25,694 bases of DNA, taken from the IMG/VR virus record IMGVR_UViG_3300037070_002865, positions 1 through 25,694 of that record. One strand, 5' to 3'. The DNA is from a virus. The number at the start of each line of letters is the position of its first letter. Positions within the stretch are counted from its first letter, which is position 1. The notes under the pieces were generated by a model, which was not told the origin of the DNA, did no database searches, and was given only the letters and a program-made list of their open reading frames with translations. Below are positions 8,832 through 25,694 of this stretch, in pieces. Position numbers and translations under genes: made by a program.

Positions 8832-9296
8832 TTAGCCGTGATTCGCGAAATCGCCGTGCACCATGTCGGCTGCAAGGCAATAGAACTCATGGGCAAGCTG
8901 CGGCGTCTCGAACACGCCGAGGTGCTTTTTCTTGCCGAAGTACCTGATGACAGCGACCGGGCTGCCGGTGCGCTTGTGGATGTAAACGCCCTTGAAGCCG
9001 CTGCGGTTGGTGCGCTGGCGGCCTTGGTTCTGCATGTTCTGGGCGCGAGTGCACACGCGGAGGTTGGCGCGGCGGTTGTCCAATGGATCGCCGTTGCGGT
9101 GATCGATGAACGACCCGTCGCGCGGCTTGTTGCCCAATCCAAGCAGGAACCTGTGGAAGTAGACGCTCCTCTTTTCGACGCGCCCCACAGGCCGTTCATG
9201 GCAGTTCAGCCACCATGTGATCGAGGAAGCGCGGTCATAGTCCTCGTCATCCACGGTGATGACCGAGAGGCTGTCGCGAATCGGAATGGTTTTCAT
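8832..9296 (-). CDS. HNH homing endonuclease with C-terminal AP2-like domain (copy 4)
   Basis: 154 aa from ATG 9296 (MKTIPIRDSLSVITVDDEDYDRA). An in-frame ATG at 9335 is rejected because it would place a terminator hairpin inside the gene. The HNH core runs from His48 (VYFHRFLLGL) through Asp65-His66 (FIDHRNGD) to Asn74 and Asn78 (DNRRANLR), matching the HNH_3 pattern. An AP2-like DNA-binding segment follows (SGFKGVYIHKRTGSPVAVIRYFGKKKHLGVFETPQLAHEFYCLAA, ~99-143). Such proteins nick or cleave intron-less target sites and spread their own genes. This copy separates the portal and scaffold genes and is most similar in layout to the HNH gene at 11359-11835. Confidence 0.85.
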   Translation of the reverse strand: MKTIPIRDSLSVITVDDEDYDRASSITWWLNCHERPVGRVEKRSVYFHRFLLGLGNKPRDGSFIDHRNGDPLDNRRANLRVCTRAQNMQNQGRQRTNRSGFKGVYIHKRTGSPVAVIRYFGKKKHLGVFETPQLAHEFYCLAADMVHGDFANHG

Positions 9297-9302
9297 GGCT
9301 GG

Positions 9303-9328
9303 CAAAAGAAAGCCGCCCGAAGGCGGCT
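9303..9328 (-). terminator. Intrinsic terminator inside the late operon, after the portal gene
   Basis: The minus-strand transcript forms a perfect 7-bp stem AGCCGCC/GGCGGCU with a UUCG tetraloop (DNA 9311-9328), followed directly by UUCUUUU (9304-9310). It lies 21 bp after the portal stop and before the HNH start at 9296. Full expression of scaffold and capsid genes would need antitermination or a downstream promoter. Confidence 0.8.
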
Positions 9329-9349
9329 GGTTCATGGAGTGATCTGTGG

Positions 9350-11358: not shown

Positions 11359-11835
11359 TCAGACGTGGCGAGCGAACGCGCCGTGCAGTGCTTCAGCGGC
11401 CATCCGGCGGCAGGCTGCGGCAGCCTCAGGGTCGGTGAACGTGCCTAGATAGGTCCGTTTTCCGTGGGCATCGATGTAGGGCTTCCACTTGTTCTGGCCC
11501 GGCTCCTTGAACACCCCCTTGATCCCGCTCCCGCTGGTCGAACGCGTCGCGCGATTGCATTGGTTCTGGCTCCACGTGGCAACACGCAGGTTCTCGCGCC
11601 GGTTGTCCGCGCGGTTCAGGTTGATGTGATCGGCAAACTGCCCATCGCCCTTGTGCAGGCCCAGCAAGTGCCGATGCATGAAGATCGTAGCCTTGCGACC
11701 ACCGCCAATCCTGCGGGTTCGGACGGCGTAGCCGTTACCGTTCAGGTGCCACAGGAAGGCGTTCAGTTCCTCGTAGTCGGCCGCATCCACAGTGATCGCA
11801 TCGCCCTTGCTGGTGTAGATCGTGCGCGTGTTCAT
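11359..11835 (-). CDS. HNH homing endonuclease with C-terminal AP2-like domain (copy 3)
   Basis: 158 aa. ATG 11835 overlaps the upstream stop (ATGA), with GAGG 8 nt ahead. The HNH core contains MHRHLLGLHKGDGQFADHINLNRADNRRENLR, with His54/His56, Asp69-His70, Asn78 and Asn82. The AP2-like part is SGIKGVFKEPGQNKWKPYIDAHGKRTYLGTFTDPEAAAACRRMAAEALHG (~103-152). The N-terminus (TRTIYTSKGDAITVDAADYEELNAFLWHLN) pairs with copy 4, not with the other two copies. The gene lies between a hypothetical late gene and the portal gene and ends 2 bp before the portal ATG, so portal translation may be coupled to it. It acts on DNA in the infected cell. Confidence 0.87.
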   Translation of the reverse strand: MNTRTIYTSKGDAITVDAADYEELNAFLWHLNGNGYAVRTRRIGGGRKATIFMHRHLLGLHKGDGQFADHINLNRADNRRENLRVATWSQNQCNRATRSTSGSGIKGVFKEPGQNKWKPYIDAHGKRTYLGTFTDPEAAAACRRMAAEALHGAFARHV

Positions 11836-14612: not shown

Positions 14613-15086
14613 CTAAATCGTGCATCCAGGGTGCTCCCGGCGCTTTGCTGCCACGTAGGCTGCGTGTGCCTCCTCGGGCGTGTCGAACCAGCCAAGCCGC
14701 TTCAACTGCCCAGCCGTCTGGATCTGCGCCCGATAACGATTTCGGAACTGAGAGACACCCAACAGCCCGAGCTTGTTGTCACGGTGAGGGCGGCGTTGGT
14801 TCTGCGTGTTGGCCAGCTGGCTCGCTTCCCTGAGGTTGGCGAATCGATTGTTGGTCTTGTCACCATCGCGGTGGTCAAGTCCATGCGCCGGCCAGTTCCC
14901 CGTCACGTACAGCCATGCCAGCCGATGCGCCCGATACCGGTGCCCGTCGACGGAGATGTACACGTAGCCATCACCCTTCTTGGCCGAGGCAGACACTTTC
15001 CGCACGATGGTGCGGCGCGTGAACTCACCCGTTTCCGAGTCGTAATGCAGCAGCTCGCGCAGGCGCGCGGCGGTCAGTTCGGTCAT
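14613..15086 (-). CDS. HNH homing endonuclease with C-terminal AP2-like domain (copy 2)
   Basis: 157 aa from ATG 15086 (MTELTAARLRELLHYDSETGEF), with GAAAGG 8 nt upstream; the longer open frame is non-native. The HNH core is HRLAWLYVTGNWPAHGLDHRDGDKTNNRFANLREAS, with His54, Asp71-His72, Asn80 and Asn84. The AP2-like segment is LGLLGVSQFRNRYRAQIQTAGQLKRLGWFDTPEEAHAAYVAAKR (~106-149). The N-terminal LRELLxYDxETGxF and GYVYIxxDGxRYxAHRLAWLYVxGxWP are shared closely with the copy at 15882-16394, so the two are paralogues. It sits between the late-promoter-like spacer and the small terminase, the classic location for phage HNH genes near cos/pac. Confidence 0.88.
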   Translation of the reverse strand: MTELTAARLRELLHYDSETGEFTRRTIVRKVSASAKKGDGYVYISVDGHRYRAHRLAWLYVTGNWPAHGLDHRDGDKTNNRFANLREASQLANTQNQRRPHRDNKLGLLGVSQFRNRYRAQIQTAGQLKRLGWFDTPEEAHAAYVAAKRREHPGCTI

Positions 15087-15101
15087 GGGATTTGCCTTTC
15101 G

Positions 15102-15134
15102 GCAGAGAGACGACTCTCCCTTGAGAGTCTCTCC
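15102..15134. repeat. Inverted repeat (GACTCTC/GAGAGTC) upstream of HNH copy 2
   Basis: GACTCTC and GAGAGTC form a perfect 7-bp stem around CCTT, extended by GAGA/TCTC with a small bulge. No T-tract follows on either strand. It lies in the non-coding spacer between the zinc-finger gene and the HNH gene and may be a regulatory hairpin in the late leader. Confidence 0.5.
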
Positions 15135-15183
15135 AGGGGCTTTACGGGGCGGACCTGGGTGTCGGGCAGAGAGTCCGCGGTCG

Positions 15184-15233
15184 ACAACTTGAGCAAGTTG
15201 TGGCTCCGCTGGTCGCGATTGTAGCCACAACTT
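15184..15233 (-). promoter_or_regulatory. Candidate late promoter flanked by an 11-bp inverted repeat
   Basis: AAGTTGTGGCT (15195-15205) and AGCCACAACTT (15223-15233) are perfect inverted repeats 17 bp apart. A further ACAACTT at 15184-15190 makes a second palindrome with the first arm. On the minus strand a near-consensus -10 hexamer TACAAT (15218-15223) lies at the inner edge of one arm; no good -35 is visible, which suits an activator- or Q-dependent promoter. It is directly downstream of the Q-like gene and upstream of the late genes. Alternatively the arms form competing RNA hairpins. Confidence 0.45.
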
Positions 15234-15276
15234 CCCGTGATGTGGAACAGCCCTACTGTAAGCCGATGCCGTCATT

Positions 15277-15885
15277 TCAGCCGCCGCGCTTGCATTGGTC
15301 GAGGTACGTGGCCAGGCGCTTGCCGTCCTCGCCATAGGGCGGGCGCAGAGTGCCGCGGCCCTGGCATTCGTGACAGGTATGGGTGGAGGTCACGTTCGTG
15401 CCGGGGATCAGCGGCGCCCCCCTGCCCTCGCAGACCTTGCACGTGGGGTCCAGCCAGTAGCGCAGGACGGTGGCTGCCTTGGCGTCGGCGTCCTCCATGT
15501 CCCAGTGGATGGCCTGCAGCGTGAGTTGCGCGGCTATCACAGGCAGATCGTGCAGGCGGGCGATGGCGGCGACGACGGCGCGGTAGTAGGCGCCAGCCAG
15601 CTCGTGCTTCTCGCGCGTGGCTTGGAGGCGTGCCTGGTCGCGGGTAAAGCCCAAGGCCATGAGTTGGGCGGGCGTGCGGGGGCGACGTCGTGCTGGCTTC
15701 TCGCGGTCCCACTGCGCAACCAGCCGCACAAGCTCGGTGCCAAGGCGCTTCTTGCTCCATGCCATGGCCGCGAGGATATCGGGGGCTGACGGCGGAAAGT
15801 CGGAGTGGCGCATGGTCATGTCGGAAGTGGAGCAGGCCACGTCGTAGCGCTCCATTCGGTCTGGACGATCGGTGTTGAGGCTCAT
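15277..15885 (-). CDS. Zinc-finger protein in the position of a Q-type late antiterminator
   Basis: 202 aa, starting on an ATGA overlap with the upstream HNH gene and with GGAG 7 nt ahead. Residues ~40-145 are helical (LVRLVAQWDREKPARRRPRTPAQLMALGFTRDQ...). The C-terminal third carries two DnaJ-like knuckles, CKVCEGRG (Cys149, Cys152) and CHECQGRG (Cys171, Cys174), which should bind one zinc ion. Proteins with CxxCxGxG knuckles at this place, after rusA-type genes and before the late genes, include phage antitermination Q proteins. That role is supported here by the adjacent promoter-like spacer and by terminators within the downstream operon. The family assignment is by position and knuckle only. 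Confidence 0.72.
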   Translation of the reverse strand: MSLNTDRPDRMERYDVACSTSDMTMRHSDFPPSAPDILAAMAWSKKRLGTELVRLVAQWDREKPARRRPRTPAQLMALGFTRDQARLQATREKHELAGAYYRAVVAAIARLHDLPVIAAQLTLQAIHWDMEDADAKAATVLRYWLDPTCKVCEGRGAPLIPGTNVTSTHTCHECQGRGTLRPPYGEDGKRLATYLDQCKRGG

Positions 15886-16394
15886 AGAACCGCTCCTGCA
15901 TGGAACTCCTCCTTTGCCCGTTGATACGCTGCCTGCGCCTCTGCGGGCGTGCGGAAGCTCCCGAGGTTGTAGTTCTGGTAGAGCACGGTGATCTTTGCGA
16001 CGAATCGGCCGCCGTGGCGGAAGACGCCGATAGGCAACTGCTTCCCGGCTCTGGGCCTGACGGCGTTCTGTGCGTTCAATGAGCAGTCCGCTTCCCGGAG
16101 GTTGGCGATGCGGTTGTCGGTTCTAACGCGGTTGATGTGGTCGACCATCTGCGACGGCCACACACCGTAGACGTAGAGCCATGCCAACCGGTGTGCGAGG
16201 TATCTCACGCCGTCAATGCCGATGTAGACATAGCCAACCTTGCTGTTGGCGCGGACGCCAGTGACGACACCAGCGGGAGCGTTGCTCCCTTTCGAGACCA
16301 GCCATCGAAACAACCCCGTCTCGGGGTCATACGCGAGCAGATCGCGCAGTCGATGCGAGGTCAGTTCCTCGCGGGTTGGCTTGTCGTTCAGCAT
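15882..16394 (-). CDS. HNH homing endonuclease with C-terminal AP2-like domain (copy 1)
   Basis: 170 aa from ATG 16394 with a strong GGGAGG site; it overlaps the preceding small gene by 7 bp. The core HRLAWLYVYGVWPSQMVDHINRVRTDNRIANLREAD contains His68, Asp85-His86, Asn94 and Asn98. The AP2-like part is LPIGVFRHGGRFVAKITVLYQNYNLGSFRTPAEAQAAYQRAKEEFHG-like (~120-166). It is a close paralogue of the copy at 14613-15086, especially in LRDLLAYDPETGLFRW and GYVYIGIDGVRYLAHRLAWLYV. Unlike the other copies it lies upstream of the late region, in the early operon between a small ORF and the zinc-finger gene, with its stop overlapping the next start. Confidence 0.88.
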   Translation of the reverse strand: MLNDKPTREELTSHRLRDLLAYDPETGLFRWLVSKGSNAPAGVVTGVRANSKVGYVYIGIDGVRYLAHRLAWLYVYGVWPSQMVDHINRVRTDNRIANLREADCSLNAQNAVRPRAGKQLPIGVFRHGGRFVAKITVLYQNYNLGSFRTPAEAQAAYQRAKEEFHAGAVL

Positions 16395-16555
16395 GTGCGC
16401 CTCCCGGCGACCTTCTCCCACTCCTCGTAGGCGTGGCGAGGGTTGAAGCCGCAGCCGAAGAGGAAGGGCATGATCAGGTTGCCGCGGCAGTCTTGGATGC
16501 GCACGGCGCAGTACCACAGGCCGTGGTGCAGCAGGATGCGTGGCTTGTGGCTCAT
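16388..16555 (-). CDS. Small hypothetical protein after RusA
   Basis: 55 aa (MSHKPRILLHHGLWYCAVRIQDCRGNLIMPFLFGCGFNPRHAYEEWEKVAGRRTC). Its ATG overlaps the RusA stop (ATGA) and its end overlaps the HNH start. It has three Cys-flanked short strands (LWYCAVRIQDCRG) and the C-terminal FNPRHAYEEWEKV. Similar tiny ORFs accompany rusA in many beta-proteobacterial prophages; I do not know a function. It is too small for the motif to decide more. Confidence 0.6.
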   Translation of the reverse strand: MSHKPRILLHHGLWYCAVRIQDCRGNLIMPFLFGCGFNPRHAYEEWEKVAGRRTC

Positions 16556-16986
16556 GCGGCCTCCGCAGGTTCCATGTGGAACACGGACACGTCCACGCCT
16601 GGCGTCTGCGCATAGCGCTTGCGCTTGCGCACCTCCACGACCTGCACGTCGTCCTTCCAGACCACGCCGTTCAGGCCGTCGAACACGCACTTCTCCACGT
16701 TGTCGATATCGGGCTTGGTGGCTGGGTGAAGGAGACCAGCCAGTGCAGCGGCGCGCCTCTTCTTCGACCAGCTGGTGGGCGCCATGACGCGGATGTCCAG
16801 AACCACCGTGCAGGCGTCCAGCAGGATCGGGCGGCCGGCCATGGCCTGGTGCGCTGCGTGGGCCACCAGCGACTCGTAGTTGAGGGTCTTGGTGGGCGTG
16901 CGCAGCGTGGTGTGACCGGCGAAGGATCGGCCGGCGATGGGGCGCTGCTTGCCGACTGGCGGGCCTGGGATGGTGAAGGAGATCAT
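16552..16986 (-). CDS. rusA: RusA-family Holliday junction resolvase
   Basis: 144 aa; E. coli RusA is 120 aa. The start MISFTIPGPPVGKQRP matches the family opening (xxFxIPGxPxxKxRP). The catalytic region HPATKPDIDNVEKCVFDGLNGVVWKDDVQVVEVRKRK holds the paired acids of the KPDIDN motif (Asp93, Asp95) and the downstream Asp112/Asp113. The enzyme is a dimer that resolves four-way DNA junctions formed during phage recombination and replication. It overlaps the preceding gene by ATGA and lies in the nin-like region between the primase-helicase and the Q-like gene, as in lambdoid phages. Confidence 0.93.
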   Translation of the reverse strand: MISFTIPGPPVGKQRPIAGRSFAGHTTLRTPTKTLNYESLVAHAAHQAMAGRPILLDACTVVLDIRVMAPTSWSKKRRAAALAGLLHPATKPDIDNVEKCVFDGLNGVVWKDDVQVVEVRKRKRYAQTPGVDVSVFHMEPAEAA

Positions 16987-17327: not shown

Positions 17328-17454
17328 CGCGTTTCCCTGATGGGAATTCCCGACCTCGGTTTTCCCATTTCCCACCCCCTTTCAGGGGGTGGGTGGCGAA
17401 ATGGGGAAAAAACCGACTGGTTTTCCCACTGGCAATTCCCATCAGAATTCCCAT
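17287..17454 (-). CDS. Possible small ORF coupled to the primase-helicase gene
   Basis: 55 codons from an ATG whose A overlaps the helicase stop (TGATG); a second in-frame ATG lies four codons on. The product (MGILMGIASGKTSRFFPHFATHPLKGGG...) is basic and Gly-rich with no recognised domain. It covers the long hairpin and TGGGAA repeats, so the DNA may be under structural rather than coding selection. I give it low confidence as a gene. Confidence 0.3.
   Translation of the reverse strand: MGILMGIASGKTSRFFPHFATHPLKGGGKWENRGREFPSGKRDGKVGTGNGVRRD
17360..17410. repeat. Long inverted repeat and TGGGAA-repeat cluster after the primase-helicase
   Basis: CCCACCCCCT (17371-17380) and AGGGGGTGGG (17384-17393) form a perfect 10-bp stem with a 3-nt loop. 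It is extended by TTTTCCCATTT (17360-17370) against AAATGGGGAAAA (17399-17410), interrupted by a 5-nt bulge. The surrounding 17318-17456 region on the minus strand contains about nine TGGGAA- or GGGAA-type words, including GATGGGAATT twice, 10-12 bp apart. No T-tract follows the stem. It could be a replication-related iteron/hairpin region or an mRNA processing or attenuation structure. Confidence 0.6.
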
Positions 17455-19421
17455 CACTCGGTCTCCTTGGTAGTCATGAGGGCGGCGGCGATGTTGTGCA
17501 GATGGATGCGGCCGGCCGACTCGGTGATGGTCTTGCCCGCCAGGCGCTGCAGCGCGCGGTAGATGGGGGAGGTGTTGAAGCCCTGGGACTCCAGCGCCTT
17601 GACCAGATCGCGGCGCAGCATGGTCTGGTTGGGAGCGAAACGCAGCAGCCCGCACAGGGCCACGTCCAGTTCGTTGCCCCGCTCCTTCTTGGCCTTGGGC
17701 GCTGGCTTTTCGTCGGTCAGCTCCACCACGCAGGTGGTGACCGGCTTGCCCCACTGGTCGAGCATGCCCATCTTGACCACGGAGAACTTGGCGGTGATGG
17801 ACTCGCCGCGGGTCGGGAGATCGCGCTGCTTTTTGATGGCGGCGGTGTGCAGCTTGGTGGCTTCCTCGGCCGTGACCTCGATCTCGGTATCGGTGGCGGC
17901 CTTCAGGCTGGAGTGGCCGCGAGAGCCCTTGGCGGCGTCCTTGCCGCTGTGGTGGATGAACATGACATGGGCGGCGGTGGCCGCGCGGATCTGGTCGGCA
18001 TGGGCGATGACCGCGCTCATGTCCTCGCTGGCGTTCTCGTTGCCGCCGGCAAAGGCGCGCGCCAGGGTGTCGATGATGATCAGCGTGACGGGGCAGCCGT
18101 AGTGGGCCTCGACGGCGCGGCAGGCGGCCACCACGCGGCGGGCGTCGGCGTTGGGCTTGAGAAGGTTGACCGCCACCGGCACCACGGCCAGCTTGGGCGA
18201 CAGGTTGTACTTCTGGCGCCAGGCCAGAAGGCGCAGCTTGATGGACTCGGCGCCCTCGCCGGCCACGTACAGGACGGCGCCGGGAACGGTGCGCTTGCCC
18301 AGCCACGGGATGCCGCAGGCCAGGCAGCAGCCCATGTCGCAGGCCAGGAACGACTTGCCGGAGTTGGATTCGCCGTAGATAACAGACAGGCCGCCTTGCG
18401 TGAGGACGTCCTCCACCAACTGCGCCATGACGATGGTGGAGCCGTCGATGGCCTCGGCGAACACCAGTGGCAGGTCAGTGGCCGCGTCATTGGCGGCTGG
18501 CGCCTCCTGCTTTTCAAGGGGATTGATCCATCCCTTTTCCCTGGCACGGAACAGGATGGTCTGGTAGTTGATCGGCTTGTCGCCGCGGGGCTGGAGGGTG
18601 GCCCACTTGTGGGCGGCCTCGCGCGAATCGAAGCGCGGCGACATCTGCCCCCACTCCAACCAGATGCCCCGGCCCACGTCGCCCAGCGCCTTCAGGGCCA
18701 TGCCGAAGTGGATCCACAGGTCGTAGTCGTCGGGATCGAAGTAGGCGAGCGCGGCGCGCAAGTCACGCCGCTGGTTCTCATCAATAGTCTGGACCGACGG
18801 GGCAGCGTCGTCCCGTGGTTCTGCCGCCTCGCCGGCCTGTTGCGTGATCCACGCCTGAAAGGCGGGCGACATGGGCCGCAAGACGTTATCGGCCAGGATG
18901 TTGCCCGTGATGGTCACGAAACCGCTGACGCCGAATAGCTCGAGGTTTCGGTTGGGGCCGTAGCGGTGGTGAGCCTTGCGGGACTCCAGCTGGCCATAGA
19001 CGAGGATGCGAACGCCCCCGCCGCTGGGGCTGAATTCGGTGTAGCTGTCGGCCTCGGTGACGATGGCGGCAGCCTGGGGGATCAGGTCACCGTTCTCCAC
19101 GCAGTTATCGAGGTCGATGGCCTTGACGGGGGAGTTGGGCAGGACTGCGAAACCCACCCCGTCAAAACCACCGGAGCGAAAGCGCGCTAGGGCCGCGGGA
19201 AATTCGACCAGTTGCTCCAGATCGGCCTGGCCGCCCTGCGCGCCGTGGCGCTTTACGCCGCTTGCGTAATAGGGGATCTTGCCCATCTTGCCGCCCTTGG
19301 CCGGCTCGTAGCGCCAGACGACCCATTGGCGGTAGCGGCGGATTTCCTCGGGGACATGCAACTGCAGCCGGTCGGCCAGCGCTTCGACCACCGAGCCGTT
19401 GGAGCCCGGGACTGCCATCAT
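17454..19421 (-). CDS. Primase-helicase: AEP-like primase domain fused to RepA/DnaB-like ATPase
   Basis: 655 aa from ATG 19421; a second ATG follows immediately. Residues ~25-195 resemble the bifunctional primase-polymerase fold (WVVWRYEPAKGGKMGKIPYY, then AIDLDNC with Asp103/Asp105, then FSPSGGGVRI). Residues ~222-298 match the PriCT_2-type linker (LAYFDPDDYDLWIHFGMALKALG...ARFDSREAAHKWATLQP-like). Residues ~330-600 form a RecA-fold ATPase of the RepA/AAA_25 kind: Walker A GESNSGKS (350-357), Walker B LIIIDT (~447-452) and sensor-like FIHHSGKD (~488-494). It should prime and unwind phage DNA. It follows the CII-like gene, where lambda carries O and P. Confidence 0.88.
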   Translation of the reverse strand: MMAVPGSNGSVVEALADRLQLHVPEEIRRYRQWVVWRYEPAKGGKMGKIPYYASGVKRHGAQGGQADLEQLVEFPAALARFRSGGFDGVGFAVLPNSPVKAIDLDNCVENGDLIPQAAAIVTEADSYTEFSPSGGGVRILVYGQLESRKAHHRYGPNRNLELFGVSGFVTITGNILADNVLRPMSPAFQAWITQQAGEAAEPRDDAAPSVQTIDENQRRDLRAALAYFDPDDYDLWIHFGMALKALGDVGRGIWLEWGQMSPRFDSREAAHKWATLQPRGDKPINYQTILFRAREKGWINPLEKQEAPAANDAATDLPLVFAEAIDGSTIVMAQLVEDVLTQGGLSVIYGESNSGKSFLACDMGCCLACGIPWLGKRTVPGAVLYVAGEGAESIKLRLLAWRQKYNLSPKLAVVPVAVNLLKPNADARRVVAACRAVEAHYGCPVTLIIIDTLARAFAGGNENASEDMSAVIAHADQIRAATAAHVMFIHHSGKDAAKGSRGHSSLKAATDTEIEVTAEEATKLHTAAIKKQRDLPTRGESITAKFSVVKMGMLDQWGKPVTTCVVELTDEKPAPKAKKERGNELDVALCGLLRFAPNQTMLRRDLVKALESQGFNTSPIYRALQRLAGKTITESAGRIHLHNIAAALMTTKETE

Positions 19422-20272: not shown

Positions 20273-20503
20273 TCACCCCACAGTCGGTGCATCGGCAGTG
20301 GCCGGTGGTTGGTCCTTCGGCCGTTTGGCCAGTTCCTCGCGGTGCACAGCCTGCAGGCTGCGCCAGTTGCGAGACAGCACGTCGTTCACAGCGCCGCGCC
20401 GGATCTTGCTGATGGTGGGTTGCGGGATTCCAGTGCGCTCGGCGATCTGGTCCTGCGTGAGCCCCCAGTCAAGGAGGTCTTGAACGAAGTCGCGGGCTTC
20501 CAT
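20273..20503 (-). CDS. Cro-like helix-turn-helix regulator
   Basis: 76 aa with AAAGGA about 10 nt upstream. The N-terminal half is an XRE-type helix-turn-helix (DLLDWGLTQDQIAERTGIPQPTISKIRRGAVNDVLSRNWRSLQAVHREELAKRP), with the recognition helix around QPTISKIRRG. The small size and lack of a second domain fit Cro. It is transcribed divergently from the CI-like repressor across a 68-bp control region. It should repress the rightward arm and the repressor gene to favour lytic growth. Confidence 0.85.
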   Translation of the reverse strand: MEARDFVQDLLDWGLTQDQIAERTGIPQPTISKIRRGAVNDVLSRNWRSLQAVHREELAKRPKDQPPATADAPTVG

Positions 20504-20525
20504 GGGCGGGCATTCCTTTGCGCCT

Positions 20526-20553
20526 ATGGTACCAGTCCTTTCGGCATATGCAA
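20526..20553 (-). promoter_or_regulatory. Candidate promoter for the Cro-like operon with operator-like palindromes
   Basis: On the minus strand TTGCAT (DNA 20548-20553) and TACCAT (20526-20531) are separated by 16 bp. Two perfect 8-bp palindromes, TGGTACCA (20527-20534) and GCATATGC (20544-20551), overlap these hexamers with centres 17 bp apart. These are likely CI/Cro contact sites. Confidence 0.5.
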
Positions 20554-20566
20554 GCGCGATTAAATA
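20539..20566 (+). promoter_or_regulatory. Candidate promoter for the CI-like repressor, possibly leaderless
   Basis: TTTCGG (20539-20544) and TAAATA (20561-20566) are 16 bp apart, and the ATG at 20572 follows 5 bp later without any Shine-Dalgarno sequence. This arrangement matches the leaderless cI transcript of lambda pRM. The -35 is weak, which would allow regulation by protein bound at the adjacent palindromes. Confidence 0.35.
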
Positions 20567-20571
20567 CGTAC

Positions 20572-21090
20572 ATGGCGCGCGAAGAATGGGACACCCTGGC
20601 CAAGCGGGTAAAAGGCCGGCGGCTGCTGCTCAAGTTCAGTCAGGAGCAGCTGGCCGAGTTTGCTGGCCTGGGCCAGTCCGACATCTCCAAGATCGAACGC
20701 GGGGACAGCCAGCAAACCGCGAAGATCGCGCAGCTGGCGCGCGCGCTGCGGTGCGATCCCCTCTGGCTGGCCACCGGCGACGGGGATCCGCGACCCGTGG
20801 CCACGGCCCTCCCGCAGTCTCAGGAGACATTGCTGGAGAAGTACGGCCGCACGCTGGTGGATCTGGAAGCCATCCCACCTGGCCGGCGGCACCGCATCCT
20901 GGACGAAATTACCGACGAGGCCGACCGGGCGCGTGAGGCGGCGGCGCACTTGGGCGCTTGGCCTGAAGCCACGCCTGCGCCAACGAGCGCCCCACTGGAC
21001 CCTGACGCAACGGCCGCACGGCTGATCGCTGAGGGGCAGCGCCTGGACGAGATCGCGCGGCACAAGCGCACAGGGCGCAGGCTTAAGTAA
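20572..21090 (+). CDS. CI-like phage repressor without a LexA-type peptidase domain
   Basis: 172 aa from ATG 20572 (MAREEWDTLAKRVKGRR); earlier in-frame ATGs at 20518 and 20548 fall within the promoter-operator region. Residues ~6-65 form an XRE helix-turn-helix (LAKRVKGRRLLLKFSQEQLAEFAGLGQSDISKIERGDSQQTAKIAQLARALRCDPLWLATGD), with the recognition helix at QSDISKIERG. The C-terminal part is helical and Ala/Pro-rich and lacks the Ser-Lys dyad region of S24 peptidases, so it should not self-cleave with RecA. Induction may need an antirepressor or another signal. It maintains lysogeny by repressing both arms. Confidence 0.85.
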   Translation: MAREEWDTLAKRVKGRRLLLKFSQEQLAEFAGLGQSDISKIERGDSQQTAKIAQLARALRCDPLWLATGDGDPRPVATALPQSQETLLEKYGRTLVDLEAIPPGRRHRILDEITDEADRAREAAAHLGAWPEATPAPTSAPLDPDATAARLIAEGQRLDEIARHKRTGRRLK

Positions 21091-23048: not shown

Positions 23049-23468
23049 ATGTCCGCCGAAGCAACGAACATCCTTCCCTTCCACGCCGAGAAGCGCTCTC
23101 TGGAGCAGCTGGTGGCCGCCTGGATCGAGGCCAAGCGCGAGGAGGACACCGCCAACTCCAAGCGCATCGCCATCGAGCAGGAAATCTGCGCGCTGCAGCC
23201 ACCCAAGCAGGAAGGTGCGACCACCGTGGAGGCCGGCGGGTTCAAGCTCACCGTCACCGGGTCGCTCAGCTACAAGGCCGACGACATCGAAGCGCTGCGC
23301 AACATCACCTCCGGCTGGGACGCCAACCTGGTGCCCCTGCGCTCCAAGACCGAGGTGGACCCCACGGGCTGCAAGTGGCTGCGTGCCAACCGGCCCGAGC
23401 TGTGGGAACAGGTCGCCAAGGTCGTCACCGTCAAGCCGGCCAAGCCGTCGGTCAAGGTGAGCGTCTGA
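23049..23468 (+). CDS. Hypothetical protein of the recombination cassette
   Basis: 139 aa from ATG 23049 with AAGGAG upstream. An N-terminal helix (RSLEQLVAAWIEAKREEDTANSKRIAIEQEICALQPPKQEGATTVEAGGFKLTVTGSLSYKAD) leads to a small beta hairpin, then WDANLVPLRSKTEVDPTGCKWLRANRPELWEQVAKVVTVKPAKPSVKV. Homologues with this layout usually precede a Sak4-type ATPase in beta- and gamma-proteobacterial phages and are uncharacterised. Its stop overlaps the ATPase start (TGATG), so expression is coupled. A role in recombination is inferred from position. Confidence 0.72.
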   Translation: MSAEATNILPFHAEKRSLEQLVAAWIEAKREEDTANSKRIAIEQEICALQPPKQEGATTVEAGGFKLTVTGSLSYKADDIEALRNITSGWDANLVPLRSKTEVDPTGCKWLRANRPELWEQVAKVVTVKPAKPSVKVSV

Positions 23469-24235
23469 TGGCCTTCGACCTGAACTCCATCAAGCGCGGC
23501 CAGGACATCCGGCCGCCCCGCCTCTTCGTCTACGGCGTCGAGGGCATCGGCAAGACGACCTTTGCGGCCGGCGCACCGAATGCCATCTTCATCCAGACCG
23601 AAGACGGCCAGGGCGCGCTGGACATCGCGCGGTTTCCGATGGCCACCAGCATCGACCACGTGCGCGAGTACCTGGGCACGCTCTACACCGAGGCGCACGA
23701 CTTTGGCGCCGTGGTGCTGGACTCGGTCGACTGGCTGGAGCAGATCATCGCCCGCGAGATCGATGCCAAGCACGACGCCAAGGATCTGGCTTACGGCAAG
23801 GGAGCGCTCAAGCAGGCCGAGGTCTGGCAGGAGTTGCTGGGCGGCTTCAACGCCCTGCGCAACGAAAAGAACATGGCCGTGATCCTGATCGGCCACAGCC
23901 AGATCAAGCGTTTCGACTCGCCCGAGACGGAGCCCTACGACCGCTACAGCCCCAAGCTGCAGGAGCGAAGCAACGCACTGGTGCGCGAATGGGCCGACGC
24001 CGTGCTGTTCGCCAACTACCGCACCGTGGTCAAGAAGGCCGAGGTCGGCTTCAACAAGGAAGTAGCCCGCGGCATCAGCACGGGCGAGCGGCTTCTCTTC
24101 ACCAGCGAAAAGCCCGCCTACATGGCAAAGAACCGCTACGCGCTGCCAGAGAGCTTGCCGCTCTCCTGGGACGCGCTGTCGGACGCGATCGCCGGGCGCG
24201 TTATCCCGGCGGAACCTGAACTGAAAGCAGCCTGA
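23468..24235 (+). CDS. Sak4-like RecA-fold ATPase (single-strand annealing/recombination)
   Basis: 255 aa from ATG 23468. Walker A is GVEGIGKT (residues 23-30) and Walker B AVVLDSVD (81-88), followed by a DWLEQIIAREI helix and AVILIGHSQIKRF, a sensor-like strand. This is the AAA_24 profile of phage Sak4-type recombinases, RecA-like core proteins that promote single-strand annealing with an SSB partner. There is no second RecA DNA-binding domain. It lies directly before a DUF669 SSB-like gene and a nuclease gene, the expected partners. It acts on phage DNA in the cytoplasm. Confidence 0.87.
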   Translation: MAFDLNSIKRGQDIRPPRLFVYGVEGIGKTTFAAGAPNAIFIQTEDGQGALDIARFPMATSIDHVREYLGTLYTEAHDFGAVVLDSVDWLEQIIAREIDAKHDAKDLAYGKGALKQAEVWQELLGGFNALRNEKNMAVILIGHSQIKRFDSPETEPYDRYSPKLQERSNALVREWADAVLFANYRTVVKKAEVGFNKEVARGISTGERLLFTSEKPAYMAKNRYALPESLPLSWDALSDAIAGRVIPAEPELKAA

Positions 24236-24255
24236 ACCCGAAAGGAATCGAAACC

Positions 24256-24762
24256 ATGGCAAACCTTGCATCTGTCCTCGGCGCCGCATTCGACGCCAAC
24301 TCCGTGCAGCCCGACGAGGGCCGCGACTTCGAACCGCTGCCCGCCGGCCCGTATGAAGTGGAGATCAGCAACAGCGAAGTGAAAGACGCCAAGAGCGGCA
24401 ATGGCTGCTACCTGGCGCTGGAGCTGACGGTCGTCGGCCCGACGCACACCGGCCGCAAGGTGTGGGCGAACGTCACGCTGCGCAACACCAACGCGCAGGC
24501 CGAGCAGATCGGCCAGGCGCAGCTGTCCGCGCTGTGCCGCGCCGTTGGCATCGGCGTGCTCAAGGACACCGACGAGTTGTTCCAGAAGATCCTGCGCGTG
24601 CGCCTGAAGGTGACGCCGGCCAAGGACGGCTTCCCCGCGAAGAACGAAGTCACCGCCTACGAAGGGATGGGGGCGCCGCAGCCGTCGCCCTCCGCGGCCC
24701 GGCCCGCGGCCAATGCGCCTGCGCCGGCTGCTGCGCCGAAGAAGGCTCCCTGGCAGAAGTGA
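24256..24762 (+). CDS. DUF669 family protein, SSB-like partner of Sak4
   Basis: 168 aa from ATG 24256 with AAAGGA upstream. The N-terminal ~135 residues (FEPLPAGPYEVEISNSEVKDAKSGNGCYLALELTVVGPTHTGRKVWANVTLRNTNAQAEQIGQAQLSALCRAVGIG) match DUF669, an OB-fold-like family that in phages occurs beside Sak4-type ATPases and is thought to bind single-stranded DNA. The C-terminal ~35 residues are Pro/Ala-rich and end KKAPWQK, unlike the acidic tail of host SSB. The stop overlaps the nuclease ATG (TGATG). Confidence 0.87.
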   Translation: MANLASVLGAAFDANSVQPDEGRDFEPLPAGPYEVEISNSEVKDAKSGNGCYLALELTVVGPTHTGRKVWANVTLRNTNAQAEQIGQAQLSALCRAVGIGVLKDTDELFQKILRVRLKVTPAKDGFPAKNEVTAYEGMGAPQPSPSAARPAANAPAPAAAPKKAPWQK

Positions 24763-25694
24763 TGGCTGCTGTTCCGCAAGCCCTGCCCGCCACCGTGCGG
24801 GCCATCTACGAGGCATATGAGAAGCGCCGCGCAGATGAGCCCGTGCGGGGCTACTTGGGCGCCAGCACCATCGGCCACGCCTGCGACCGCTACCTGTGGC
24901 TGTCGTTCCGCTGGGCTGGTGCCGAGGCGTTCGAGGGGCGCATGTTGCGCCTGTTCGACCGCGGCCAGCGCGCGGAGGCTCGCTTTGTCGATGAGCTTCG
25001 CATGATCGGCGCCACGGTGCACGACGTAGGCGATGACGGCAAGCAATTCGCGGTAGAAGCATGCGGCGGCCACTTCCGGGGCCACATGGACGGCGCGGCG
25101 CTGGGCCTGCCGGAGGCCCCCAAGACCTGGCACGTGCTGGAGTTCAAGACGCACAACGCTAAGAGCTTCAAGGACCTGCAGGCCAAGAGCGTTCGCGAGT
25201 CCAAGCCGATGCACTGGGCACAGGTGCAGGTCTACATGCTGCTGACAGGCATGACCCGCGCTCTGTACCTGGCTGAGAACAAGGACACGGACGAGATCTA
25301 CGCCGAGCGCATCCACCTGGACAAGGCCGAGGCTGAGCGGCTGATCGAGCGCGCGCAGCGCGTGATCGACGCTAGTGAGCCGCCGCCCAGGCTGTCCACA
25401 GATCCCGCATGGTTCACCTGCAAATACTGCCCGTTTCATGCGCAGTGCCACGGCACCGAGGTGCCGGCGGTGACGTGCCGCAGCTGCGCGCACTCGACGC
25501 CCGAGAAGGACGGTTTGTGGACGTGCGGGCGATACGACAGCTTCATTCCGCCTGCCACGGAAGTCACCGGCTGCAGTGAGCACCGCTACATCCCTGTGCT
25601 GCTGGAGCGCATCGGCAAGCCAGTGGACGCCGATCCCGAGGCGAACAACGTCACGTATCAGACCAGCGACGGCAGCCAGTTCACCAACGGCTTT
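24762..25694 (+). CDS. Cas4/RecB-like PD-(D/E)XK exonuclease with Fe-S cluster (3' end cut by window)
   Basis: 311 codons are visible from ATG 24762 and the frame runs past the window end. The nuclease core includes GHMDG (Asp110), LEFKTHN (Glu127 and Lys129) and QVQVYML (Gln154), the classical D, ExK and QxxxY set. Cys41 (GHACDRYLW) plus CKYCPFHAQC (Cys220, Cys223, Cys229) should bind a 4Fe-4S cluster as in Cas4 and AddB. A second Cys set (Cys239, Cys242, Cys255, Cys271) may hold a zinc ion. It likely resects phage DNA for the Sak4/DUF669 annealing system. No adaptation genes are near, so a CRISPR role is unlikely. Confidence 0.87.
   Translation, partial: MAAVPQALPATVRAIYEAYEKRRADEPVRGYLGASTIGHACDRYLWLSFRWAGAEAFEGRMLRLFDRGQRAEARFVDELRMIGATVHDVGDDGKQFAVEACGGHFRGHMDGAALGLPEAPKTWHVLEFKTHNAKSFKDLQAKSVRESKPMHWAQVQVYMLLTGMTRALYLAENKDTDEIYAERIHLDKAEAERLIERAQRVIDASEPPPRLSTDPAWFTCKYCPFHAQCHGTEVPAVTCRSCAHSTPEKDGLWTCGRYDSFIPPATEVTGCSEHRYIPVLLERIGKPVDADPEANNVTYQTSDGSQFTNGF

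Follow-up and report, generated by a model that had tools for sequence, protein, structure and literature searches.

What process do the four closely packed genes at the right end of IMG/VR virus record IMGVR_UViG_3300037070_002865 serve? The window analysed here is that whole record, 25,694 bases, and the genes lie on its plus strand at 23049-25694. An earlier reading of the sequence (the original prediction) described them as a complete and less studied recombination cassette in which a Sak4 annealing ATPase is paired with a single-stranded DNA-binding (SSB)-like protein and an Fe-S nuclease. We think it very probable that they form a single-strand-annealing cassette of a temperate phage. 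This conclusion draws on profile matches for all four proteins, their co-occurrence across viral loci, the residues, model and fold neighbours of the nuclease, published data on phages HK620 and phi11, and an integrase on a second contig of the same phage. What we observed directly is the order of the genes, the families to which they belong, the conservation of catalytic and cluster residues, and the recurrence of the module. The cassette is of a kind already known, a further example of a recombination module that is widespread in phages; the placement of short C-terminal tails on its proteins may be new.

The cassette and its relatives

Translation of the window gives four same-strand open reading frames (ORFs) in this interval, with the following features:

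23049-23468, plus strand: DUF7173 protein, 139 amino acids (PF23791, phrog_2480); long N-terminal helix, beta-hairpin and helices in an AlphaFold2 model
23468-24235, plus strand: Sak4-like core-RecA ATPase, 255 amino acids (PF13479, phrog_124), with Walker A and Walker B-like motifs
24256-24762, plus strand: DUF669 SSB-like protein, 168 amino acids (PF05037, phrog_6015); Ala/Pro-rich linker, then C-terminal APWQK
24745-24759, plus strand: Pro-Trp tail, APWQK, at the C-terminus of the DUF669 protein (in relatives, [PAV]W among the final 12 residues)
24762-25694, plus strand: Cas4-type PD-(D/E)XK exonuclease (phrog_1990), 311 codons with no stop, 3' end cut by the contig end
24882-24884, plus strand: nuclease Cys41, first predicted Fe-S ligand (invariant, 63/63)
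25419-25448, plus strand: nuclease Cys220-x2-Cys223-x5-Cys229, other predicted Fe-S ligands (invariant, 63/63)
25476-25583, plus strand: second Cys/His cluster of the nuclease, C239, C242, C255 and H274, predicted to be Zn-ribbon-like (invariant, 63/63)

The genes are as tightly packed as first described. One-base TGATG overlaps of stop and start join genes 1 and 2 (DUF7173 and Sak4) and genes 3 and 4 (DUF669 and nuclease), which are therefore probably translated together as two pairs, and 20 bases separate genes 2 and 3. The cassette is not complete within the window, contrary to the original prediction: the record ends at base 25,694 and cuts gene 4 short, and at least one further linked gene follows outside. 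Locus L009, on another contig of this phage (100% identity across 8,224 bases), supplies the rest of the nuclease, which is 349 amino acids long and ends ..WRKELGARIAR. Beyond it lie a 74-residue Cys-rich protein, a protein judged by eye to resemble HNH nucleases, several small ORFs and an integrase of the tyrosine type (PF00589, E 2.3e-08; phrog_1, E 1.1e-31). The last bases of the window (25692-25694) differ from L009, the match stopping at 25691, perhaps through an assembly-end error.

Profile searches bear out the two central assignments. Gene 2 is, by its matches to PF13479 AAA_24 (E 6.4e-44 over residues 16-224) and the Sak4-like family phrog_124 (E 1.6e-40), a member of the Sak4 family, and a placement outside Sak4, named beforehand as the contrary outcome, did not appear. 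Its 255 residues form a core-only RecA ATPase in which we read by eye a Walker A motif, GVEGIGKTT, and a Walker B-like motif, AVVLDS. A tblastn search of a phage collection with this protein returned 195 records, all below 60% identity and the best, from Synechococcus phages, at 48%. Gene 3 is likewise, on profile evidence, a DUF669 SSB-like protein (PF05037, E 2.8e-16; phrog_6015 SSB, E 2.6e-30), as had been proposed; its best PHROG match is phrog_2300 (E 2e-45), a family of unknown function.

Gene 4 matches the Cas4-domain exonuclease family phrog_1990 (E 4.5e-110 over residues 3-282) and PF12705 (E 2.3e-07). In an alignment of 63 sequences, L009 and 62 relatives, C41, C220, C223 and C229 are invariant, as are H104, D110, K129, Q154 and Y158, with E127 nearly so. 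We take the cysteines to be Fe-S ligands and the second group to be the catalytic PD-(D/E)XK residues, as in the superfamily. The four-cysteine set is a predicted Fe-S cluster signature and agrees with the nuclease type originally proposed; the opposite result, a nuclease lacking the cluster, did not appear. After this motif come C239, C242, C255 and H274, also invariant, and the nearly invariant C271; the four invariant residues look like a Zn ribbon, zinc being the presumed metal. The AlphaFold2 model of the L009 nuclease has a predicted local distance difference test score (pLDDT) of 96.4. Its best PDB match by Foldseek is SSO0001 (E 4.2e-07; the entry title gives only this name), which is a Cas4 protein, and VIA-align places it near LHK-Exo (Z 13.3, root-mean-square deviation (rmsd) 4.0, 179 residues aligned) and lambda Exo (Z 12.3, rmsd 3.5, 177 aligned). 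The CRISPR Cas4 profile PF01930 gives 16.7 bits, below the family cut-off of 22.7, and we therefore call the protein a phage Cas4-type exonuclease and not Cas4. In seven phage regions, where no dedicated search for cas1 or cas2 was made, neither gene was seen among the annotated neighbours, many of which are hypothetical.

Gene 1 belongs to a less informative family, DUF7173 (PF23791, E 8.8e-10; phrog_2480, E 1.4e-16). Its model is confident (pLDDT 92.6), and Foldseek found no PDB match at E <= 0.001, the best VIA alignment reaching Z 3.2 (rmsd 2.4, 39 aligned). Against predicted viral structures there were 8 matches at E <= 0.001, all to uncharacterised or unnamed proteins. Searching PDB sequences with profiles of DUF7173 and of the nuclease gave nothing better than E 0.25.

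The same genes recur together. In our main survey, which took the 80 best viral loci recovered with Sak4 as the only query, 74 loci encode DUF669 and the nuclease as well as Sak4, and 50 of these 74 also encode DUF7173; each of the remaining six loci, which have no nuclease, ends less than 600 bases after the last gene found. This co-occurrence is far beyond chance. DUF7173 is present in 54 of the 80, usually upstream of Sak4, and downstream of it in Salicola CGphi29. A scan with the nuclease added 80 more loci, out of at least 592. The order Sak4-SSB-nuclease is found in Mcat30, Yong-M3-232, C7, PaMx25, PA73, KL1 and MiCath, each with a superfamily 2 (SF2)-type or annotated helicase further on.

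Comparison with known phages shows which parts of the module vary. Pseudomonas phage 73 (PA73) and Burkholderia phage KL1 share with the window, in the same order, a DUF7173 homologue (PA73 ORF033, upstream of Sak4; PF23791, E 2.8e-44), Sak4, a Pro-Trp-tailed SSB and the exonuclease; unlike the window, they continue with an SF2 helicase, a small protein, a sliding clamp with an SSB-like tip, and a polymerase. Pseudoalteromonas phage C7, the Moraxella Mcat phages and Synechococcus phage Yong-M3-232 also have an upstream gene, Sak4, DUF669 and nuclease, with a small ORF intervening in Mcat30. Mcat30 is the only one of this set whose upstream gene scores above the DUF7173 cut-off (E 1.3e-13); that of C7 falls below it (E 8.3e-05). 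They differ from the window in that a helicase follows the nuclease, directly in C7 and Mcat30 and after two genes in Yong-M3-232. The HK620 module (HkaL Sak4, HkaK DUF669 SSB, Abc2, HkaM) has Sak4 beside a DUF669 SSB in the same order, about 4 kb from an integrase, but no Cas4-type nuclease was found in 12 kb, Abc2 being there instead, and its SSB ends in NDYPPF where the protein of the window ends in APWQK. Lambda Red (Gam, Bet, Exo) also combines an annealing protein with an exonuclease of the PD-(D/E)XK fold. The Red genes lie near an integrase as well; Bet is not known to have a RecA fold, Exo has no known Fe-S cysteines, and no phage SSB is known in the system.

Functional data on homologues exist for two phages. 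The DUF669 protein of HK620 is an SSB, and HK620 Sak4 and SSB have been purified and assayed (Hutinet et al., 2018, PMC5928155; this and the other cited papers are used here through excerpts). Annealing by Sak4 was stimulated by the SSB through its tail, and without NDYPPF recombineering fell 10-fold and Sak4 no longer bound single-stranded DNA coated with SSB; most of the gain in recombineering depends on this tail (PMC5928155). In the same account, up to 80% of sak4 genes adjoin an ssb gene (PMC5928155). In Staphylococcus phage phi11, where Sak4 also works with a cognate SSB, sak4 and ssb are needed for phage replication and mutants form fewer concatemers; the excerpts of that account make no mention of a Cas4-type nuclease (PMC5499656). 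Sak4 plus an exonuclease was noted in KL1/PA73, and in 2012 it was suggested that this pair might be a conserved recombination system in KL1 and relatives, certain Burkholderia phages (PMC3483164). In view of the HK620 proteins and the KL1-type gene pair, the description of the system as less studied fits only in part. We found no biochemistry of the nuclease branch of the module in the excerpts.

These elements suggest a working scheme. The Cas4-type Fe-S nuclease would resect duplex DNA ends, with both activity and direction presumed, and DUF669 would coat the exposed single strand. Sak4, loaded on the coated strand, would use ATP to anneal it to a complementary strand. The product would be phage DNA that is repaired or concatemeric, and exchange with related DNA would occur as a side effect. 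DUF7173 would probably be a co-translated accessory factor. Short C-terminal tails, Pro-Trp on DUF669 and an SSB-like acidic PF tip on a partner, may link the components to one another or draw in host partners of SSB.

C-terminal tails on the SSB-like protein and its neighbours

The DUF669 protein of the window does not carry the acidic ..PF tail of its HK620 counterpart, which is an HK620 feature and not a trait of the whole DUF669 family. In 170 loci (L002-L171 of our numbering), Pro-Trp lies within the last 12 residues of 151 of the 157 complete DUF669 proteins, compared with 183 of 11,951 other ORFs. In the wider set of loci up to L308, DUF669 has [PAV]W in this region in 168 of 170 loci with the nuclease and in 1 of 120 without it, and a ..PF tail in 0/170 and 55/120, respectively; the 120 are highly redundant, 80 coming from an HK620-type scan and 35 from a Streptococcus-type scan. 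With redundancy removed, the [PAV]W counts are 80/81 and 1/13. The exceptions are as follows: L068 has a Pro-Trp tail without the nuclease and ends 578 bases after DUF669, and its nuclease may be cut off; DUF669 of L091 ends ..RLWARR..; and in L002 the protein is annotated as two pieces, the second ending TPPWKR. We found no report of a Pro-Trp tail on DUF669 proteins in literature that mostly excludes subscription journals, which makes this weak evidence of novelty.

On a DUF669 tree of 94 rows, the presence of the nuclease changes only four times and so does the type of tail, with two supported independent pairs, and a tree-based sign test of one against the other gives a median p of 1; we do not claim independence. 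With only about four joint changes, descent could explain the association, and the correlation rests on few independent events.

SSB-type ends occur on other proteins of these neighbourhoods. E. coli SSB ends in DDDIPF (PMC5928155). By a tip we mean acidic residues followed by hydrophobic residue-Pro-Phe as the final residues of a protein, with a variable linker before them; the patterns were set after a first sight of the data. A relaxed pattern, in which one acidic residue is enough and Cys and a trailing G are allowed, admits doubtful cases such as ..LEKAPF in L165 and ..EWQLYIPF on a small protein of Vibrio vB_VhaS-tm. In loci L002-L171 the nuclease ends in a tip (e.g. NDDIPF, FNDPIPF) in 50 of 155 cases. 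Strict counts, taken over ORFs of at least 60 amino acids in redundant loci, give tips on 50/171 nucleases. For the other proteins, nuclease loci and loci elsewhere give 13/75 and 0/38 for helicases, 0/170 and 7/120 for DUF669, 0/166 and 1/45 for Sak4 (the one being L291, ..DPELPF), 17/3,844 and 1/2,226 for other same-strand ORFs, and 0/4,579 and 0/2,453 for opposite-strand ORFs.

The bearers are varied. Helicases end in DLDDDIPF (PaMx25), AYDDDIPF (MiCath), LDDEVPF (16-3) and LDDMPF (Mcat30). In KL1 (L309, 2180-3340) the DNA polymerase III beta-like sliding clamp ends in DMDDDIPF, and in PA73 (L173, 7689-8831) in NYEDDIPF; both are near-copies of the E. coli SSB tip. Small Zn-ribbon-like proteins, which in window-like phages adjoin the nuclease or lie a few genes after it, end in HDDVPF, WDEIPF and, in the phage of the window, FDAIPF. 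This last is the 74-residue Cys-rich protein just past the window end (L009, 8377-8601; end ..CEGWQFDAIPF), which matches phrog_23504, a family of unknown function (E 8.8e-05); it has one acidic residue and fits the relaxed pattern only, and the nuclease of this phage, in its L009 version, has no tip. One complete nuclease weakly matches the profile of the small protein (E 0.0003). We found no report of an SSB-type tip on a phage nuclease, helicase or clamp, in literature with the same coverage.

Usually a single protein carries the tip. In a non-redundant set of 89 nuclease loci, from which nuclease ORFs running off the contig and rows more than 80% alike were dropped, the bearer is the nuclease in 16, the small protein in 20, the helicase in 10, another ORF in 10 (including DUF6511 proteins, ..PEVPF, and the PA73 clamp) and none, within the sequence available, in 33; among the 62 loci with at least 3 kb downstream, the figures are 10, 18, 8, 9 and 17. 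Counting all same-strand ORFs in the 89 loci, 52 have one tip ORF, four have two (L005, L010, L015, L178) and 33 none. In no locus of the 89 do two of nuclease, small protein and helicase carry it, against a naive expectation of 6.8, and none of 20,000 random draws gave zero, a figure uncorrected for descent. This exclusivity is partly trivial, since no helicase match was found in 14 of the 16 loci with the tip on the nuclease.

Two further observations concern PF ends. In a clade of nucleases that lack a tip, a candidate tip bearer, which in L118 (4935-5321; the one case tested) matches DUF6511 (E 2.5e-23), often has an ..EVPF end; similar ORFs recur in L112-L166, where most lie about 1.1-1.6 kb beyond the nuclease. 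HkaM, a small protein beside HK620 Sak4 (L172, 5754-5942), ends ..PSELPF, a second PF end within the HK620 module, and ..SELPF is found in many of its close relatives among L181-L230.

How are these patterns to be understood? There is a substantial possibility that the tails are lineage markers without shared function, the Pro-Trp end being inherited and the PF ends having arisen separately as family signatures. The DUF669 tree, with its four changes each and two independent pairs, leaves the association statistically untestable, and 115 of the 120 nuclease-less DUF669 proteins come from the two scans named above. The nuclease tip is confined to one clade (13 of its 20 rows, with four changes), 33 of the 89 loci have no tip ORF and four have two, the patterns were set post hoc, and the PF end of the small protein may be the structural end of a Zn ribbon. 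Mere inheritance fits less well with the pattern of conservation: in 15 non-redundant tip nucleases, F and P are present in all 15, I in 12 and D at -5 in 12, the last two residues carrying 4.3 bits, whereas positions -7 to -30 carry 0.9-2.3. It fits less well, too, with a similar end on four different neighbourhood proteins, compared with 0/4,579 opposite-strand ORFs in the same loci.

Alternatively, and only tentatively, we suggest from these C-termini that the SSB tip has moved off the strand-coating protein onto another protein of the neighbourhood, usually one, while the phage SSB carries a Pro-Trp docking tail. Partners would then be recruited to an enzyme at a DNA end or fork, not to all coated strand; candidate partners, put forward just as tentatively, are Sak4 or, on the host side, SSB-binding proteins such as PriA, RecO, DnaG or chi. 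If the tip does recruit host SSB partners, phages could direct the repair and restart proteins of the host by shifting a single short peptide from one protein to another. The tail pattern offers a concrete handle on the coupling of annealase, SSB and nuclease that is cheap to test, as a six-residue tip or a Pro-Trp tail can simply be removed. A matched set of the three proteins might also be tried as a recombineering kit in bacteria in which lambda Red performs poorly.

Other possible roles for the nuclease and the DUF7173 protein

Several points weigh against a single-strand-annealing cassette. The DUF669 protein of the window is without the acidic tip through which Sak4 is stimulated in HK620, and the HK620 loading step is for that reason not simply transferable. 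HK620 Sak4 and SSB bound each other only on single-stranded DNA and not in solution (PMC5928155). Many relatives have an SF2 helicase after the nuclease; in L009 none was found within the 4.4 kb downstream of it. Finally, other roles have been suggested for phage Cas4-like nucleases, among them spacer acquisition in Campylobacter phages and restriction or degradation of unmodified or host DNA (PMC5704561, PMC7504290).

Building on those proposals, the nuclease could serve host DNA degradation, counter-defence or CRISPR spacer misdirection, and the proximity of Sak4 and DUF669 would then reflect a general early replication block. We judge this improbable. The nuclease does lie several genes away from Sak4 in Rhizobium phage 16-3, but the three genes are clustered in 74 of the 80 surveyed loci, and the DUF669 and nuclease genes of the window overlap by one base. 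The fold neighbours of the nuclease also include exonucleases that are partnered with annealing proteins, as LHK-Exo is. Lambda Exo is another (PMC5928155).

Highly improbable is a DUF7173 protein that acts as a Mu-Gam-like end binder, shielding ends from RecBCD and making the cassette an analogue of lambda gam-bet-exo: a weak phrog_491 match (E 0.0055, residues 5-38), the Gam annotation of the MiCath DUF7173 protein in its record and the presence of Mu gam-like genes among the catalogued upstream neighbours of sak4 in Firmicutes phages (PMC8093625) speak for it, but direct comparison of the DUF7173 profile with Mu Gam (one sequence) did not uphold the match, giving a probability of 2.6% (E 0.018) over 38 columns of a different region, which is better than three unrelated controls (E 0.43-0.72) yet far below the 90-95% of true relatives, and the PDB fold searches described above found no counterpart.

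Genome surroundings

The cassette is carried by a temperate phage. To its left in the window are a CI-like helix-turn-helix protein (20518-21090, plus strand; phrog_4 repressor, E 1.8e-16), a small helix-turn-helix protein (20273-20503, minus strand) and a primase/helicase (17454-19421, minus strand). With the repressor on the left and the integrase on the right, the cassette sits between the two. The lambda red genes are placed likewise between repressor and integrase. A tRNA 3' end suspected after the L009 integrase is not claimed: ARAGORN found none, and the Rfam tRNA score of 19.7 is below the threshold of 29.

Two further features of the minus strand deserve mention. A RusA-like Holliday junction resolvase (16552-16986; PF05866, E 2.7e-30), in the opposite operon, could finish recombination started by the cassette. 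Four HNH_3 endonuclease ORFs lie within 8 kb (8832-9335, 11359-11835, 14613-15335 and 15882-16613), between structural and replication genes, and are perhaps homing endonucleases.

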